Shown: positions 571-7,796 of the stretch, piece after piece
Position numbering within the stretch: position 1 is the first letter of the stretch
Layout: the number at the start of each line of letters is the position of its first letter
Assembly (NCBI GenBank): GCA_029564595.1
Contig: JAKQPS010000044.1
Coordinates: forward strand, 112,473 to 176,472
DNA from: a bacterium
GTDB lineage: Bacteria > UBP15 > UBA6099
DNA: 64,000 bases
Direction: 5' to 3'
The notes under the pieces: generated by a model
Told to the model about the DNA's origin: nothing
Database searches by the model: none
Seen by the model: the letters and a program-made list of their open reading frames with translations, nothing else
Made by a program: the position numbers and the translations under genes

Positions 571-2121
571 CTACGGATTCGTTTTTTCGCCCGGCGCGCG
601 ACGGTCTTTTCTAGCGCAAATCAGAATTCCATCATGAGCGGTGATCAGGTCGTAGTCATCCCTGACAAGTTTCTGTATGAAAGCGAAGAGTGGTTTCTGC
701 GCGGCGGCGACCTCGTATTGCGGTTTGCCTTTTAACGCCGCCTCCATCCCTTCGGATAGAAGCGGGGCTTCGACGACAATCAGCTTGGGAGGATTTTCGG
801 CTACTTCGTAAATGAATTCTCTTATTCGTTCGTCCGCGTATCCTTTAATGAAGAGCGGCTTGATGGTGGCGTGTCTGGTGGGAGCGGCGCGGCCCGAAAG
901 CGCGTACACAAGCGCCGAATCGCTCCAGACCAGAACCCGCTCGTCCGGGGCCGCATTCCGCGCAACGAGTTCCGCGACGAATTTCTTGTGGAACCATTCC
1001 ATCGGGTCGCCGCCCGGACGCGTCCAGCCTGAATTGCCGTGAGAATGGGCCGGGGCAACGGCATGGAACGCGACCGCCGAGAGACTTATCAGAAAAAAAA
1101 GGAGAGACGCGCGGCGGCGAATCGGGGGCGAGGACATCCGGCTCTCATCGAAAAGGCTCCCCGCTCCCAGCATGACTGTCGCCGGAAGCAGAAGAGATAT
1201 GAACGACGACGGGGTTAAAAAGCCGGACACCGGGATTGCGGCTATCTCAAAAAACAACCATGCCGCGATGGCCTGTCTGAGATGAGCCGAACCGGGTTCA
1301 TCCGCCACGCGCTTTGCGCCGGAAAAAAACAACAGAATAAGAGGCGAAACCAGCGCCGCGATTTTTACCGCGCACGAAAAGCAGAAATCGAGTCGCGGCA
1401 GCGCCCCGGCGGCGGCAATTACATGCAGGTTCGAGCCTAGCGCCTGCGCGAACGGAGCGGCTACCCCGGACGCGAACAACGCGATGGCGAGCGCCGCAGG
1501 CGGAACGATAAAACCGGCGATAGAAGCGCCCGCCCTGCCTCGAACGGCGATAAGCCCCACAACGACCAGAGCGGCTTCGCGCCCGACGAAACAGGCAGCC
1601 GCCCCCGCCGCTAGGCCCGAAGCGAACGCGGCTCTGAAACCGTCTTTTTTCGTCCTTTTCACGAGCGACAGAAAAAACAGAGCCGAGAACAAAGCCGCCC
1701 ATGAGTGCGGCGAGTTAGGAGCGCCGAAGCTTGTCAGCGCCGCCGACGCCATAAAGAACCACAAAGCCGCCGTCCCTGCTCCTAAGGACGCCGCCCCTAT
1801 GCTTTTCAATATAAAGAACACTGCCGCGCCCGCTCCCGCCAACCACAACAACTCCATCACTGTGGAAGTTATGAATGTCGGCCCGACAAGTTGAGCGAGG
1901 GCGTTTACGATAATCGTGCCCGGAAGGCGGTCGTACCACACATCCGCGTATGGAAGCCCCCCTTGCAGAAGACGTCCGGCGGCGTACAGGCTCAAGGATG
2001 ATTCCGCATGCGCTATGTCTCCGGGGGACTCAAGTCGGAGTCCGGCTGCCACAAGCGCGCCGCAAAGGACGACTATCAGCGTCCTAGCGCCCGCGCTTAA
2101 TGTCGATTTCATTCCATCCAT
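571..2121 (-). CDS. Multi-span membrane protein, glycosyltransferase family 39-like
   Basis: About 516 residues. After a short N-terminus and a first membrane segment (LIVVLCGALVAAG) comes a luminal/periplasmic loop with GDIAHAESSLSLYAAGRLLQ and GGLPYADVWYDRLPG. This acidic loop after TM1 is typical of polyprenyl-phosphate-sugar transferases of the ArnT/PMT/GT39-83 type. Eight or more further hydrophobic segments follow (to about residue 340), then a soluble C-terminal region (VLVWSDSALVYALSGRAAP onward) resembling the periplasmic domain of such enzymes. The substrate cannot be told. An ATG at 2157 is possible, but a TATAAT on the minus strand at 2146-2151 would place transcription start downstream of it. 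I therefore prefer the ATGs at 2121 or 2112. The gene is divergent from the opp operon. Confidence 0.65.
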   Translation of the reverse strand: MDGMKSTLSAGARTLIVVLCGALVAAGLRLESPGDIAHAESSLSLYAAGRLLQGGLPYADVWYDRLPGTIIVNALAQLVGPTFITSTVMELLWLAGAGAAVFFILKSIGAASLGAGTAALWFFMASAALTSFGAPNSPHSWAALFSALFFLSLVKRTKKDGFRAAFASGLAAGAAACFVGREAALVVVGLIAVRGRAGASIAGFIVPPAALAIALFASGVAAPFAQALGSNLHVIAAAGALPRLDFCFSCAVKIAALVSPLILLFFSGAKRVADEPGSAHLRQAIAAWLFFEIAAIPVSGFLTPSSFISLLLPATVMLGAGSLFDESRMSSPPIRRRASLLFFLISLSAVAFHAVAPAHSHGNSGWTRPGGDPMEWFHKKFVAELVARNAAPDERVLVWSDSALVYALSGRAAPTRHATIKPLFIKGYADERIREFIYEVAENPPKLIVVEAPLLSEGMEAALKGKPQYEVAAAQKPLFAFIQKLVRDDYDLITAHDGILICARKDRRAPGEKTNP

Positions 2122-2177
2122 TTCCGGCACCCGCTTATATCTGACATTATATAACATTAAGTAAAACCCGAATATTG

Positions 2178-2252: not shown

Positions 2253-3908
2253 ATGGTGAAGAGGAATCGCAAGGCGAACGGAATAAGAAGCGCTTCGGCG
2301 AAACTTGTGGTCGCGGCGCTAGCGATCGCGATGCTCGCCGGGTGTTCGGGCAAGCCCAAGAGCGACGACTCATCAGGCAAGCCTTTCCCAAAGCTTCAGC
2401 TTCTCTACAACATCTCGGAAAGCCACAAGCTAATTGCCGAAACCCTTCAACAGATGTGGAAAAAAGAGTTGGGCATACAGGTCGACCTAGCCAACGTCGA
2501 ATGGAAAACATATCTTAAGTCTCTCCAATCTTTAGATTATCAGATAGCCCGCGCTGGCTGGATAGGCGACTACCCCGATCCGAACACGTTCCTCGACATG
2601 TTCGTCACCGACGGAGGAAACAACCAGACGGGATGGAGCAACGCTGAATACGACAGGCTGATAAAAGAGGCGTCGATGGAGGGAGACGCCGACGAACGCA
2701 TGAAGATGTTCCACGACGCCGAAGAAATTCTGATGAAAGAAATGCCGATAATGCCGATTTATTTCTATGTGAATAAAAACCTCGTGAAGGACTTCGTCAA
2801 GGGAATGCATTTCAATATGCGCGACCTTCACATTCTCAAATATGTCTATCTTGAGAAAAATGGAAAAGTTCTGCCGCCACAGGAGCAGGTGTTCCACTTC
2901 AACCTTTCAGCCGAGCCGGAGACGCTCGACCCCGGACTGATGACTGGAAGCGTGGAGTTTACAATCTCGACGCAGATATTCGAGGGACTCGTGCAGTACG
3001 ACCCGGACACTCTTGAACCCATTCCGGGAATGGCGGAAAGCTGGGAGGTCAACGACGAGCACACCGAATTCGTTTTCCATCTGCGCCGCGACGCCAAATG
3101 GACGAACGGCGACCCGGTTACGGCGGGCGACTTCGTTTATTCATGGAAAAGAGTTCTCGAACCGGAAACGACCGCCGAATACGCGTATCAACTCTTTTAC
3201 ATCAAAAACGCGAAAAAATACTATGACAAGGAAATTTCCGATTTCTCGCAGGTGGGATTGAAGGCGGTGGATGATTTCACGCTGAAGGTGACGCTTGATT
3301 CCCCGACACACTTCTGGCTCGACCTGCTCGCTTTCCACACCCTGATGCCGGTCAACAAAAACTGCGTCGAGAAATACAATGACAAATGGACGAGGCCGGA
3401 GAACATCGTGACCAACGGGCCGTTCAAGCTGACTGAATGGAAACCCAAAAGCAAACTCGTCATGGTGAAAAACCCCGGCTATTACGACGCCGCAAAAGTC
3501 CGCCTATCGAAACTGGTCGCGTACTCCGTCGAGGACAACATCACGGCGGTGAGCATGTTCGAGGCCGGACAGTCCTACTGGGTGAACACGATTCCGTTGC
3601 CGTACTCGGAGAAATATTCAAACGACCCGCAGGCGAAGAAGACGGATTTTCTTGCGGTCTATTATTACAGGTTCAACACGACGAAAGAGCCGCTGAACGA
3701 TCCCCGCGTGCGCCGCGCGCTCAACCTTGCGATTAACAAAGATGAGTTGGTGAAGTTCGTGACGAAGTCTGGAGAGAAAACGGCGACGACGTTTGTGCCT
3801 CACATGCACATGAAGGACTACGAGCCGCCTCAAGGCGAGGACTATAATCCCGAAGAGGCGCGCCGACTCCTGCGGGAAGCGGGCTACGCTGTGAAGACCG
3901 GAAAATAA
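2253..3908 (+). CDS. oppA: Peptide/oligopeptide-binding lipoprotein (OppA family), circularly permuted
   Basis: 551-residue solute-binding protein family 5 (cluster C) member, the extracytoplasmic receptor that feeds peptides to OppBCDF. The start is the ATG at 2253 with GGGAG 9 bases upstream; upstream in-frame codons are not used. Residues 1-31 are a lipoprotein signal (LAGC lipobox, Cys31). The order of the mature blocks is abnormal. Residues 44-202 (2382-2858) carry the motifs that close ordinary OppA: LLYNISESHK, RAGWIGDYPDPNTFLDMF, NQTGWSNAEYDRLIKEA, PIMPIYFYVNKN. Residues 206-551 (2868-3905) carry the normal N-terminal part: FNLSAEPETLDPG, FEGLVQYDPDTLEPIPGMAE, FHLRRDAKW, GDFVYSWKRVL, then PLNDPRVRRALNLAINKDEL and the family's mid-protein EEARRLLREAGY. 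It then stops exactly where LLYN should follow. Nothing is missing: total length is normal. Seams lie at Gly-Lys (2376-2381, 2862-2867, 3900-3905). oppB follows after 21 bases. Confidence 0.9.
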   Translation: MVKRNRKANGIRSASAKLVVAALAIAMLAGCSGKPKSDDSSGKPFPKLQLLYNISESHKLIAETLQQMWKKELGIQVDLANVEWKTYLKSLQSLDYQIARAGWIGDYPDPNTFLDMFVTDGGNNQTGWSNAEYDRLIKEASMEGDADERMKMFHDAEEILMKEMPIMPIYFYVNKNLVKDFVKGMHFNMRDLHILKYVYLEKNGKVLPPQEQVFHFNLSAEPETLDPGLMTGSVEFTISTQIFEGLVQYDPDTLEPIPGMAESWEVNDEHTEFVFHLRRDAKWTNGDPVTAGDFVYSWKRVLEPETTAEYAYQLFYIKNAKKYYDKEISDFSQVGLKAVDDFTLKVTLDSPTHFWLDLLAFHTLMPVNKNCVEKYNDKWTRPENIVTNGPFKLTEWKPKSKLVMVKNPGYYDAAKVRLSKLVAYSVEDNITAVSMFEAGQSYWVNTIPLPYSEKYSNDPQAKKTDFLAVYYYRFNTTKEPLNDPRVRRALNLAINKDELVKFVTKSGEKTATTFVPHMHMKDYEPPQGEDYNPEEARRLLREAGYAVKTGK

Positions 3909-3929: not shown

Positions 3930-4847
3930 ATGCTTAGATATGTCGCCCGGCGGCTGCTGACCGCCATCCCGGTCCTCTGGATCATCGTCACCATCACTTT
4001 TTTTATGATGCGTCTGGCGCCGGGCGGGCCTTTCTCCAGAGAGCGCGTCATGCCGATCGAAGTGCAGAAAATGATTGAGGAGCGCTATCACCTCGACGAG
4101 CCTCTTGTTAAACAATACTTCAGATACATGGGCAATTTGCTCAGGGGAGACCTCGGCCCTTCGTTCAGATACAAAGACAGGTCGGTAAACGAGATACTCG
4201 CCGCAGGGCTGCCGACCACTCTGCAACTGGGGTCTCTCGCGCTGCTGTTCGCGCTATTGGTGGGCATACCCGCCGGATGTTTGGCGGCCTTCCGCCAGAA
4301 TTCCGCCGTTGACTATGCGGCGATGTCTTTTTCCATGGTCGGCGTCTCCGTGCCGAACTTCGTCGTCCTCTCCACGCTTATTTATTTCTTCGCCGTGAAG
4401 TTGAAGATTCTGACTGTCAGCGGCTGGGGACGCTGGGACCAGATGATATGCCCCGTTGTGGCTCTCGGCCTGATGTACAGCGCGTATATCGCCAGACTGT
4501 CCCGCGCGGGGATGCTCGAAGTTATCCGTCAGGACTTCATACGGACCGCGCGAGCGAAGGGACTGCCCGAGAGGCTGGTCATCATCCGGCACAGCATCAA
4601 GGCCGGACTGCTGCCTGTGGTTTCCTTCCTCGGCCCGGCGGGAGCCGCCATTCTCACCGGCTCGCTTATCATAGAGACCATCTCAGGCGTTCCCGGCATA
4701 GGCCGCGAGTTCGTCAACTCCGCGCTGAACCGGGACTACACTCTTACCATTGGCACGGTGATTCTATACAGCGGATTTCTGATTATATTCAATCTTGCGG
4801 TGGATATCGTTTACGCATTTCTGGATCCGAGAATTGTTTACGAATGA
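3930..4847 (+). CDS. oppB: Peptide ABC transporter permease OppB/DppB
   Basis: 305-residue inner-membrane permease, the usual family length. It begins MLRYVARRLLTAIPVLWIIV, the characteristic first membrane helix. A periplasmic loop follows (PGGPFSRERVMPIEV, where the binding protein docks), then a six-helix core. The cytoplasmic EAA loop, which contacts the ATPases, is visible as DFIRTARAKGLPERLVIIRH. The C-terminal helix ends in AFLDPRIVYE. GAGGACGA precedes the ATG. Second gene of the operon, after the permuted oppA; nothing is abnormal here, which shows that the rearrangement is confined to oppA. Confidence 0.95.
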   Translation: MLRYVARRLLTAIPVLWIIVTITFFMMRLAPGGPFSRERVMPIEVQKMIEERYHLDEPLVKQYFRYMGNLLRGDLGPSFRYKDRSVNEILAAGLPTTLQLGSLALLFALLVGIPAGCLAAFRQNSAVDYAAMSFSMVGVSVPNFVVLSTLIYFFAVKLKILTVSGWGRWDQMICPVVALGLMYSAYIARLSRAGMLEVIRQDFIRTARAKGLPERLVIIRHSIKAGLLPVVSFLGPAGAAILTGSLIIETISGVPGIGREFVNSALNRDYTLTIGTVILYSGFLIIFNLAVDIVYAFLDPRIVYE

Positions 4848-4887: not shown

Positions 4888-5805
4888 ATGACGAACGATA
4901 ATGAAAAAACCAGAGCGGCGGCGGACATCCAGCCGGTGAAAGGCACGAGCCTCTGGAAGGACGCGTGGCGTAGGCTGTTGAAAAACAGAATGGCGGTGGC
5001 GGGCGGCGCGCTGCTGATACTCATCGCCTGCGCGGCGATCCTCGCTCCTGCCCTCACCCCATACGCTTTCGACGAGATACACCTTTCCGACGGCAACCAT
5101 CCGCCATCGCGGGAATATCCTCTGGGAGCCGACCATCTCGGACGCGACCTTCTGACCAGAATCCTGTACGGCGGACGCGTTTCTCTGGCGGTGGGCATCG
5201 TCGCCACTTTCGTCAGCATCATAATCGGCGTCAGCTACGGGGCAGCCGCCGGATACCTCGGCGGCCGCGCGGACAACATAATGATGCGCTTTGTCGACAT
5301 CCTTTACGGCCTGCCTTTCATGTTTCTTGTCATCCTGATGATGGTGATATTCCACAACGCCCCGGCGGAAAAGAAACTTTACCTGCTGTTCATCGGGCTT
5401 GGCGCGGTGCAGTGGCTGACGATGAGCCGCATAACAAGAGGCCAGACTCTTTCTATAAAAACGAAAGAGTACATACTAGCCGCGCGCACTTCAGGCGCCG
5501 GCGTGTTCCGGATCATCTCCCGGCATGTCATCCCGAACCTGCTCGGCCCAGTGATTGTTTACGCGACCCTGACCGTCCCGGCGGTTATGCTCGAGGAAGC
5601 GTTCCTGAGTTTCCTCGGCCTCGGCGTTCAGGCCCCGATGGCAAGCTGGGGGTCTCTCGCTTCCGACGGTCGGCAATCGCTGGACACCTATCCATGGCAG
5701 ATGATTTTTCCGGGACTCGCTCTCGCGATAACCCTGTTCTCCCTCAACTTTCTGGGAGACGGCCTGAGAGACGCGCTCGACCCGCAGATGAAAGACCAGA
5801 AATAA
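4888..5805 (+). CDS. oppC: Peptide ABC transporter permease OppC/DppC
   Basis: 305 residues, normal for the family. The N-terminal cytoplasmic segment has SLWKDAWRRLLKNRMAVAGG, the typical OppC_N region, followed by TM1. A periplasmic stretch has HPPSREYPLGADHLGRDLL, a hallmark of OppC/DppC proteins. The core BPD_transp_1 domain has five more helices, with the EAA loop EYILAARTSGAGVFRIISRH. The end GDGLRDALDPQMKDQK is canonical. It pairs with OppB to form the translocation channel. The ribosome-binding site is weak (AAAAAGAC), and the 40-base gap after oppB suggests translational coupling is loose. Confidence 0.95.
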   Translation: MTNDNEKTRAAADIQPVKGTSLWKDAWRRLLKNRMAVAGGALLILIACAAILAPALTPYAFDEIHLSDGNHPPSREYPLGADHLGRDLLTRILYGGRVSLAVGIVATFVSIIIGVSYGAAAGYLGGRADNIMMRFVDILYGLPFMFLVILMMVIFHNAPAEKKLYLLFIGLGAVQWLTMSRITRGQTLSIKTKEYILAARTSGAGVFRIISRHVIPNLLGPVIVYATLTVPAVMLEEAFLSFLGLGVQAPMASWGSLASDGRQSLDTYPWQMIFPGLALAITLFSLNFLGDGLRDALDPQMKDQK

Positions 5806-5826: not shown

Positions 5827-6822
5827 ATGGCCGAACCGGTACTGTCAGTTCAAAACCTCGTCACCAGATTCCACACGGCGGACGGAGTGGTGCGCGCGGT
5901 GGACGGAGTTTCGTTCGACCTCATGCCGGGCGGCTCGCTAGGCATTGTCGGCGAAAGCGGCTGCGGAAAAAGCGTCACCCACCTCTCCTTCCTCGGACTC
6001 ATCCCCCAGCCTCCCGGGAAAATCGAGGGCGGCAAGGCGCTGTTCAAGGGCAAAAACCTGCTAGCGATGAAACCGGGAGAGTTGCGCAAAGTCCGAGGCA
6101 ACGACATCGCGGTGATTTTTCAAGACCCTATGACTTCGCTAAACCCTGTGCTGAAAATAAGCCTCCAGATGACAGAAGGCATGATGATTCACAAAGGAGC
6201 GTCGAGAGCGGAAGCGGAGGCGCGCGCGCTTGAACTGCTGCGCGCCGTCGGCATTCCTTCTCCTGAAAAAAGATTCCACGACTACCCGCACCAGTTCAGC
6301 GGAGGGATGCGGCAGCGAGTGATGATAGCTATGGCCCTGATGTGCGAGCCTGCCGCGCTCATCGCCGACGAGCCGACTACGGCGCTCGATGTGACCATTC
6401 AGGCGCAAATCCTCGAACTCATCCAGAAAATGAGAAAAGAGACTGGCGTGGCAGTCATCCTCATCACCCATGACTTGGGCGTGGTGGCTAGCGTGTGCGA
6501 GGACATTCTGGTGATGTACGCGGGGCGAGTAGTGGAAAGCGCCGCGACCGGCCCCCTCTTCGCGCGTCCTCTTCATCCTTACACCTTCAGCCTGCTCCGC
6601 TCCATCCCCCGGCTGGACGCGGAACGAAAAGAGCGCCTCTTCTCCATTCCCGGACTGCCTCCCGACCTCATTCACAACCCGCCGGGATGCAATTTCAATC
6701 CGCGTTGCCCGTTCGCGGTGAAACGCTGCTTCAGCGAAGAACCGCCCCTGACGGAGATCGAACCCGGAAGAAAAGTCGCCTGCTGGGTGGATATCGAATC
6801 GAAAAAGGAGCGCGCCACATGA
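5827..6822 (+). CDS. oppD: Peptide ABC transporter ATP-binding protein OppD/DppD
   Basis: 331 residues. Walker [11 protein letters not shown] (about residues 41-50), Q-loop [15 protein letters not shown] signature [15 protein letters not shown], Walker [14 protein letters not shown] and switch His in ILITHDLG are all present, so it should hydrolyse ATP. The C-terminal oligopeptide-transporter extension ([13 protein letters not shown], then [10 protein letters not shown]) is complete; its cysteines are typical of the subfamily, some members of which carry an Fe-S cluster. It acts with OppF as the heterodimeric cytoplasmic motor. The stop codon overlaps the next start (ATGA at 6819-6822), indicating translational coupling. 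Confidence 0.95.
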
Positions 6823-7796
6823 GTGTGTCTCCTCTGCTATCGCTCCGTGACGTCAAAGTCCACTTCCCAATCCGGACGGGCTTCATCCGACGCAGAATAA
6901 CAGGCTTCATCCGCGCTGTGAACGGCGTCTCTTTCGATATTGAAAAAGGGGAAACCCTCGGACTGGTCGGAGAAAGCGGATGCGGAAAAACCACCGCTGC
7001 CAAGGCCATCCTCGGTCTTGAAAAAACGGCGGCGGGAGAAATCACTTTCGACGGAAAGAACATCGCAGGACTACGCGGCGAAAATCTCCGCATGATTTAC
7101 AAAGACCTTCAGGTGATTTATCAGGACCCGTACGCGTCTCTGAACCCGCGCATGACAGTGCTCCAGATAGTCACCGAGCCTCTCGCTTGTTTCAATGTAA
7201 TGAACGCGCGGGAAAGGCAGGCCCGCGCCGAGGAACTTCTAGAAACCGTCGGGCTTGACCCGCGCTACATAAGGAGATATCCACACGAGTTCAGCGGCGG
7301 CCAGCGGCAGCGCATCGGCATCGCCCGCGCGCTCGCTCTCAATCCCTCGCTGATTATCTGCGACGAGCCGGTGAGCGCTCTGGACGTCTCCATCCGCGCG
7401 CAGATAATAAACCTGCTCGAAGACCTGCAAAACAAATACCACTTCAGCTATCTTTTTATTGCTCACGACCTCAGCGTAGTGCGGCACATCAGCAACCGCG
7501 TCGCCGTCATGTATCTTGGCAAAATCGTAGAAATAGCCGACTCGAAGGACATCTACGCGTCGCCCGCTCACCCGTACACGAAAGCTCTTCTCTCCGCCAT
7601 ACCGATACCCGACCCGGAAGTGGAGGCAAAGCGGCGGCGCATCATCCTTACAGGAGACGTCCCCGGGCCGGATTCAGAAATTCCCGGATGCGCGTTCGCG
7701 TCCCGCTGCCCGGTCAAGATCGACCGTTGCGAAAAGGAATCCCCCGCGCTCCGAGAAATCGCCCCCGGCCACTCGGCCTCATGCTTCCTCGCATAA
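6819..7796 (+). CDS. oppF: Peptide ABC transporter ATP-binding protein OppF/DppF
   Basis: 325 residues from the ATG at 6819, which overlaps the oppD stop as ATGA and is preceded by AAAGGAG. Longer upstream readings lie inside oppD and are rejected. N-terminal LLSLRDVKVHFPI and the insert GFIRRRITGFIRAVNGVSF are standard for OppF. Walker A GESGCGKTTAAKAILGLE, Q-loop VIYQDPYASLNPRM, signature FSGGQRQRIGIARAL, Walker B LIICDEPVSALDVS and H-loop FIAHDLSVV are intact. The C-terminal domain with RCPVKIDRCEKE closes the protein. Last gene of the oppABCDF operon. I see no clear terminator directly after it. Confidence 0.95.
   Translation: MSVSPLLSLRDVKVHFPIRTGFIRRRITGFIRAVNGVSFDIEKGETLGLVGESGCGKTTAAKAILGLEKTAAGEITFDGKNIAGLRGENLRMIYKDLQVIYQDPYASLNPRMTVLQIVTEPLACFNVMNARERQARAEELLETVGLDPRYIRRYPHEFSGGQRQRIGIARALALNPSLIICDEPVSALDVSIRAQIINLLEDLQNKYHFSYLFIAHDLSVVRHISNRVAVMYLGKIVEIADSKDIYASPAHPYTKALLSAIPIPDPEVEAKRRRIILTGDVPGPDSEIPGCAFASRCPVKIDRCEKESPALREIAPGHSASCFLA

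Follow-up and report, generated by a model that had tools for sequence, protein, structure and literature searches.

Evidence for an ancient, natural circular permutant of the peptide-binding lipoprotein OppA in a candidate bacterial phylum

What is encoded by a single open reading frame that carries both parts of an OppA-type binding protein in reversed order? The frame in question (positions 2253–3908) lies in a 64,000-nucleotide stretch of DNA, hereafter the window, which forms the final 64 kb of a 176-kb contig from a genome that is 97% complete; the gene is ∼60 kb away from the nearer contig end. It specifies an OppA-type lipoprotein (SBP_bac_5, cluster C) of 551 residues with a LAGC lipobox at Cys31, and on translation both the frame and its lipoprotein signal are as the original prediction had described them. 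That prediction, made from the sequence alone, held that the C-terminal block of OppA precedes the N-terminal block, and offered two readings: a functional natural permutant within an opp operon, or a rearranged allele. We place a probability of about 0.92 on the protein being a natural, ancient circular permutant of OppA that is the apparent sole OppABCDF binding protein in its candidate phylum. The features of the locus are collected in Table 1.

Table 1. The permuted oppA gene, its parts and the neighbouring genes in the window
Feature	Positions	Strand	Basis
Multi-pass membrane protein, 528 aa, divergent from oppA	571–2157	-	No Pfam family at E 0.001
Signal peptide, residues 1–30, ending at lipobox LAG/C	2253–2342	+	Translation
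Lipidation Cys31 and short linker (CSGKPKSDDSSGKP) into predicted domain III	2343–2384	+	Translation
Block 1, native C-terminal part, residues 45–202 (∼Salmonella OppA 358–517)	2385–2858	+	phmmer
Junction linker NGKVLPPQEQ, ∼10 residues	2859–2888	+	Translation, comparison across genera
Block 2, native N-terminal two thirds, residues 213–545 (∼Salmonella OppA 14–354)	2889–3887	+	phmmer, Pfam, structural match
New C-terminal tail AVKTGK and stop, cut within native AGYP-GGKGFP loop	3888–3908	+	Normal-order relatives
oppB permease, directly downstream	3930–4847	+	NCBIfam OppB E 1.1e-113
oppC permease	4888–5805	+	NCBIfam OppC E 7.3e-96; Pfam OppC_N
oppD ATPase	5827–6822	+	NCBIfam OppD E 1.1e-117
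oppF ATPase	6813–7796	+	NCBIfam OppF E 2.1e-118

Comparison of the protein with the OppA sequences of the PDB by phmmer gave exactly two diagonals, in reversed order: residues 212–546 align with Salmonella OppA 13–354, and residues 48–186 with 361–499 (whole-sequence E 2.5e-96). These are the two offset diagonals that a dot plot had been expected to reveal, and they confirm that the C-terminal block comes first. The top PDB match is B. subtilis OppA (8are, E 3.5e-101), while Pfam PF00496 (SBP_bac_5) matches at 309.6 bits, split into two stretches, so that homology to the family extends over both parts. Relative to the solved OppA proteins of Salmonella (1b05/1ola) and B. subtilis (8are), both blocks are homologous over their whole length, and total length, ligand residues, lipoprotein or periplasmic targeting and OppBCDF partners are alike; the difference is that the permutant chain starts at Salmonella residue ∼358 and ends at ∼354, its native termini being fused. 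The block boundaries originally proposed are off by a few residues at most. Relatives of normal order have an uncut loop, AGYP-(G/D/N)GKGFP, where one part passes into the other; the protein in the window is opened inside that loop, such that block 1 starts GKPFPKLQLLYN and the chain finishes LREAGYAVKTGK. The native C-terminus (..LKYVYLEK) is joined to the native N-terminus (VFHFNL..) by the junction linker, whose length is conserved across three genera, and the new C-terminal tail is also present in three genera. Of the native chain, only some residues of the loop that is cut (AGYP..GGKG) lack a counterpart, and downstream of the gene, where 21 bp separate the stop codon from oppB, there is no second copy of either block, in agreement with the claim that no block had been lost or duplicated. 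Thus the gene is an OppA with a circularly permuted block order.

An obvious concern is that contig mis-joins, by faulty assembly or binning, have swapped the parts of a normal oppA, given that every genome considered here is a metagenome- or draft-level assembly. The phylum sample comprised seven genomes of UBP15 / ADurb.Bin236, from the window genome (G000) to G006. A permuted OppA is found in six of the seven, with the block order reversed in all six, and a normal-order OppA in none of the seven. Three congeners (G001–G003) match the whole protein colinearly in one open frame at 96–98% identity; further colinear matches (G004 and G005), each at 63%, come from another genus of the same family and from a genus in a different family of the order. 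The search of related genomes called for at the outset therefore found the same order in three genera and two families of the phylum. Three of these assemblies are public records (UBA6099, USCA_metabat.19_sub and ADurb.Bin236). The divergent members each have their own lipobox signal (kept yet diverged: AAGC in G004, LAGC in G005), a Cys-to-block-1 linker of similar length (∼11–16 residues) and different sequence, a GKPFPEL start and a LREAG(Y/F)AV tail. Since the permuted order recurs in independent assemblies that derive from different sources, and in two more genera with 63% identity, each time in a single open frame that carries a signal peptide of its own and is cut at the same place, the elements are cyclically shifted in nature rather than by assembly error; cross-genus conservation in practice refutes the artefact, to which we assign next to no chance. 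In the genomes of the genus, G000–G003, there is one other member of the protein family only, and it is very distant (24%). Neither OppA nor OppB was found in G006, which belongs to a third family of the order and is 78% complete, a lack that may be true absence or may reflect genome incompleteness.

In a wider screen, 386 genomes from ∼250 families were searched with a profile built from the junction region, and end-to-end matches come from the six phylum members alone. Another 102 genomes match at E 1e-20 or better, with the halves apart in the matches listed, and the outgroup OppAs examined in full are all of normal order. Matches in G193, G150 and G123 that start before the junction are read as profile extension: G193 has a C-block match downstream as well, in normal order, and the tandem pair of genes in G123 is of normal order on full reading. 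A second genome screen returned mostly the same genomes again, and scans of viral contigs yielded no match.

A genuine rearrangement could still be a non-functional allele or a decaying pseudogene. The whole-gene dN/dS is 0.03–0.10 within the genus, low in both blocks, and the permutants are under strong purifying selection. No stops or frameshifts occur in the six genomes, the gene has been retained across a divergence at which dS between genera is mostly near or beyond saturation, and it is the sole OppA of its operon. Against this evidence we consider decay very improbable, and the suggestion of a recent rearranged allele also fails, given the order shared at 63% identity and the signature of purifying selection. 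The synonymous divergence of the two blocks differs strongly by strain pair (positions 2385–2858 versus 2889–3887: 0.44 versus 0.125 for G000–G002, 0.28 versus 0.51 for G000–G001), which suggests that recombination may have occurred inside oppA within the genus.

The other reading, a functional natural permutant in an opp operon, is favoured by its presence in three genera and two families, by purifying selection and by an adjacent oppB in all carriers. In the window the permuted gene is followed by oppBCDF; oppB adjoins oppA in every phylum genome that has oppA, and no other OppB homologue turned up in these genomes, bar one weak 26% match in G004. In G003 the oppB frame (L061) is 294 residues long, against 312 in sister genomes, ∼18 residues being lost in-frame, possibly as an effect of assembly. 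Residues H58, W84, R100, W103 and D106 align with Salmonella OppA H371, W397, R413, W416 and D419 and are conserved, and substitutions are found at the sites equivalent to Y485 (to F) and R404 (to L); we take all seven Salmonella residues to be ligand-related. The pair R413/D419 presumably corresponds to the charged pair R383/D436 of DppA. The latter makes the salt bridges with the peptide and, subsequently, with the scoop of DppB (PMC12136057). We infer that the permutant binds peptide in the interlobe cleft through the usual domain III residues, and it would deliver that peptide to OppBC as normal OppA does. Most likely, its mode of action is that of an ordinary OppA, with the anchor attached to the opposite lobe. 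There is a second possibility, namely that the permuted protein has moved from peptide import to a different ligand or to a role such as sensing. Ligands of the SBP_bac_5 family are diverse, and the scores of the permutant against the NCBIfam OppA models fall below the equivalog cutoffs; however, the adjacent oppB, with oppCDF too in the window, the placement of the protein in an OppA subfamily, and the conservation of R100 and D106, both predicted ligand contacts, make such a change of role unlikely.

Can a chain in this order adopt the OppA fold? Two AlphaFold2 runs, on alignments of 14 rows, gave models with pTM 0.65 and 0.67 and mean pLDDT 73 and 72. Junction residues 201–210 are predicted well (mean pLDDT 88 and 93), while parts of block 1 fall below 50 with these 14 rows, so that its packing is of moderate confidence. 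In the predicted model, block 2 and the junction superpose on residues 1–358 of OppA 1ola over 348 residues (Z 31.8). Foldseek and VIA-align aligned block 2 only, as expected of aligners that preserve order and for which block 1 is beyond reach. The structural prediction and superposition proposed with the original claim cover block 2 and the junction, with block 1 predicted at moderate confidence and outside any order-preserving alignment. The native termini of OppA both lie in domain I; since they are together there and a short linker bridges them, and given the sequence homology of the protein to OppA, the chain would be expected to fold into the normal two-lobed cluster C structure, a statement that for the complete fold stays conditional because block 1 is the less well predicted part and the one that order-preserving aligners cannot probe. 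We take Salmonella OppA domain III to span residues ∼271–486, following the published domain limits. By these limits the new termini sit in the AGYP/GGKGFP loop in predicted domain III, and the lipid anchor, at the new N-terminus, would hang from the domain III lobe and not from domain I.

Sequences were re-ordered and a maximum-likelihood tree built from them, with the blocks also run separately. The permutants group as a single clade in the concatenated tree (100/100), with block 1 alone (97) and with block 2 alone (100), and both blocks nest in the same OppA subfamily, where they are 42–65% identical to their nearest normal-order relatives. Permutant monophyly and the shared subfamily together indicate a single permutation event that predates the split between the two families of the phylum. 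It most likely arose by tandem duplication, in-frame fusion and trimming. By this route, oppA would have duplicated in tandem and the copies fused in frame; a signal peptide would have come to join the first copy's C-block; and truncation of the second copy would have left a single signal peptide and each block once. The duplication route is supported by tandem oppA genes of normal order in same-family relatives and related genomes, including the pairs in G123 and G274. A Verrucomicrobia MAG (L037) carries three normal-order oppA paralogues head to tail. G123, G274 and G354 were considered as fused tandem intermediates and rejected, as their genes are of normal order; the OppA of G354 (L066, contig C18) is ∼700 residues long, and an insertion of ∼135 residues separates its YSWRR region from the VGVSALDD region. 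No fused intermediate was found among the related genomes examined, nor any convincing match to remnants of lost copies in the 150 bp downstream of oppA in G005 or in the short gaps at that place elsewhere, which is why the duplication route is put forward conditionally. We also rejected short repeats at the three seams (GGAAAA / GGCAAG in the window) as evidence of mechanism, since their GK is already present in the native loop GGKGFP and the third seam varies from genus to genus.

A different history would make the gene a chimera of blocks from different oppA paralogues, or the product of two split genes fused in reverse order. The trees of blocks 1 and 2 do not share a resolved sister group, and this, like the missing fused intermediate, speaks for such a history. 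On the other hand, both blocks belong to the same OppA subfamily, the permutants are one clade in each, and none of the relatives examined showed oppA halves as genes of their own. We regard such an origin as possible, though less probable than duplication; the product is a permuted OppA in either case. Duplication, fusion and the gain of a new start and stop is also the route proposed for the permutations of saposin/swaposin and of DNA methyltransferases (PMC3320104), the differences being that no intermediate has been seen for OppA and that its signal peptide had to stay at the new N-terminus.

The idea that permuted binding proteins are usually engineered needs a qualifier, because a natural one, the closest precedent for the present case, is known in another cluster: TpMglB-2 (Tp0684), a glucose-binding lipoprotein of cluster B from Treponema pallidum whose chain is circularly permuted and which is assigned to 'cluster Bc' (PMC4990184). 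It resembles the OppA permutant in being a lineage-wide natural permutation of a tethered ABC solute-binding lipoprotein that adjoins transporter genes. It differs in that ∼70–100 residues were moved, and the permuted part, at 13% identity, may originate from another gene (PMC4990184), whereas both blocks of the OppA permutant are plainly homologous; moreover, TpMglB-2 is a sugar-binding protein of cluster B (Type I), while the OppA permutant matches the cluster C family. TpMglB-2 was the only natural permuted ABC binding protein in the literature searched, and we found no report of a natural cluster C or OppA permutant, subscription journals lying mostly outside that search.

Tethering has been discussed as a possible reason for the permutation of TpMglB-2 (PMC4990184). 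Several normal-order relatives of the OppA permutant have lipobox-like motifs close upstream of their first block, so tethering alone is an insufficient explanation here and we set it aside as the cause. It could be that the permutation is adaptive, the shift of the anchor from domain I to domain III altering how the cleft is presented to OppBC and being selected in the phylum, though we consider this rather doubtful. If true, it would be, with TpMglB-2, the second independent re-anchoring of a tethered binding protein by circular permutation, and the setting of that selection would be a phylum in which the permutant serves the sole Opp importer.

Natural circular permutations that are fixed in a lineage and retain two recognisable halves are uncommon, and this one provides a rare natural counterpart to a trick mostly known from engineered proteins, as well as a natural template for permuted peptide biosensors. 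Because the OppA system is well studied, dozens of solved structures with the normal order provide a reference for testing the effects of the moved chain ends and anchor. For annotation, the lesson is that profile matches in two swapped stretches can be true biology. For the lineage itself, which is little known, the finding is of a phylum-shared permutation in one of the best-studied import systems.
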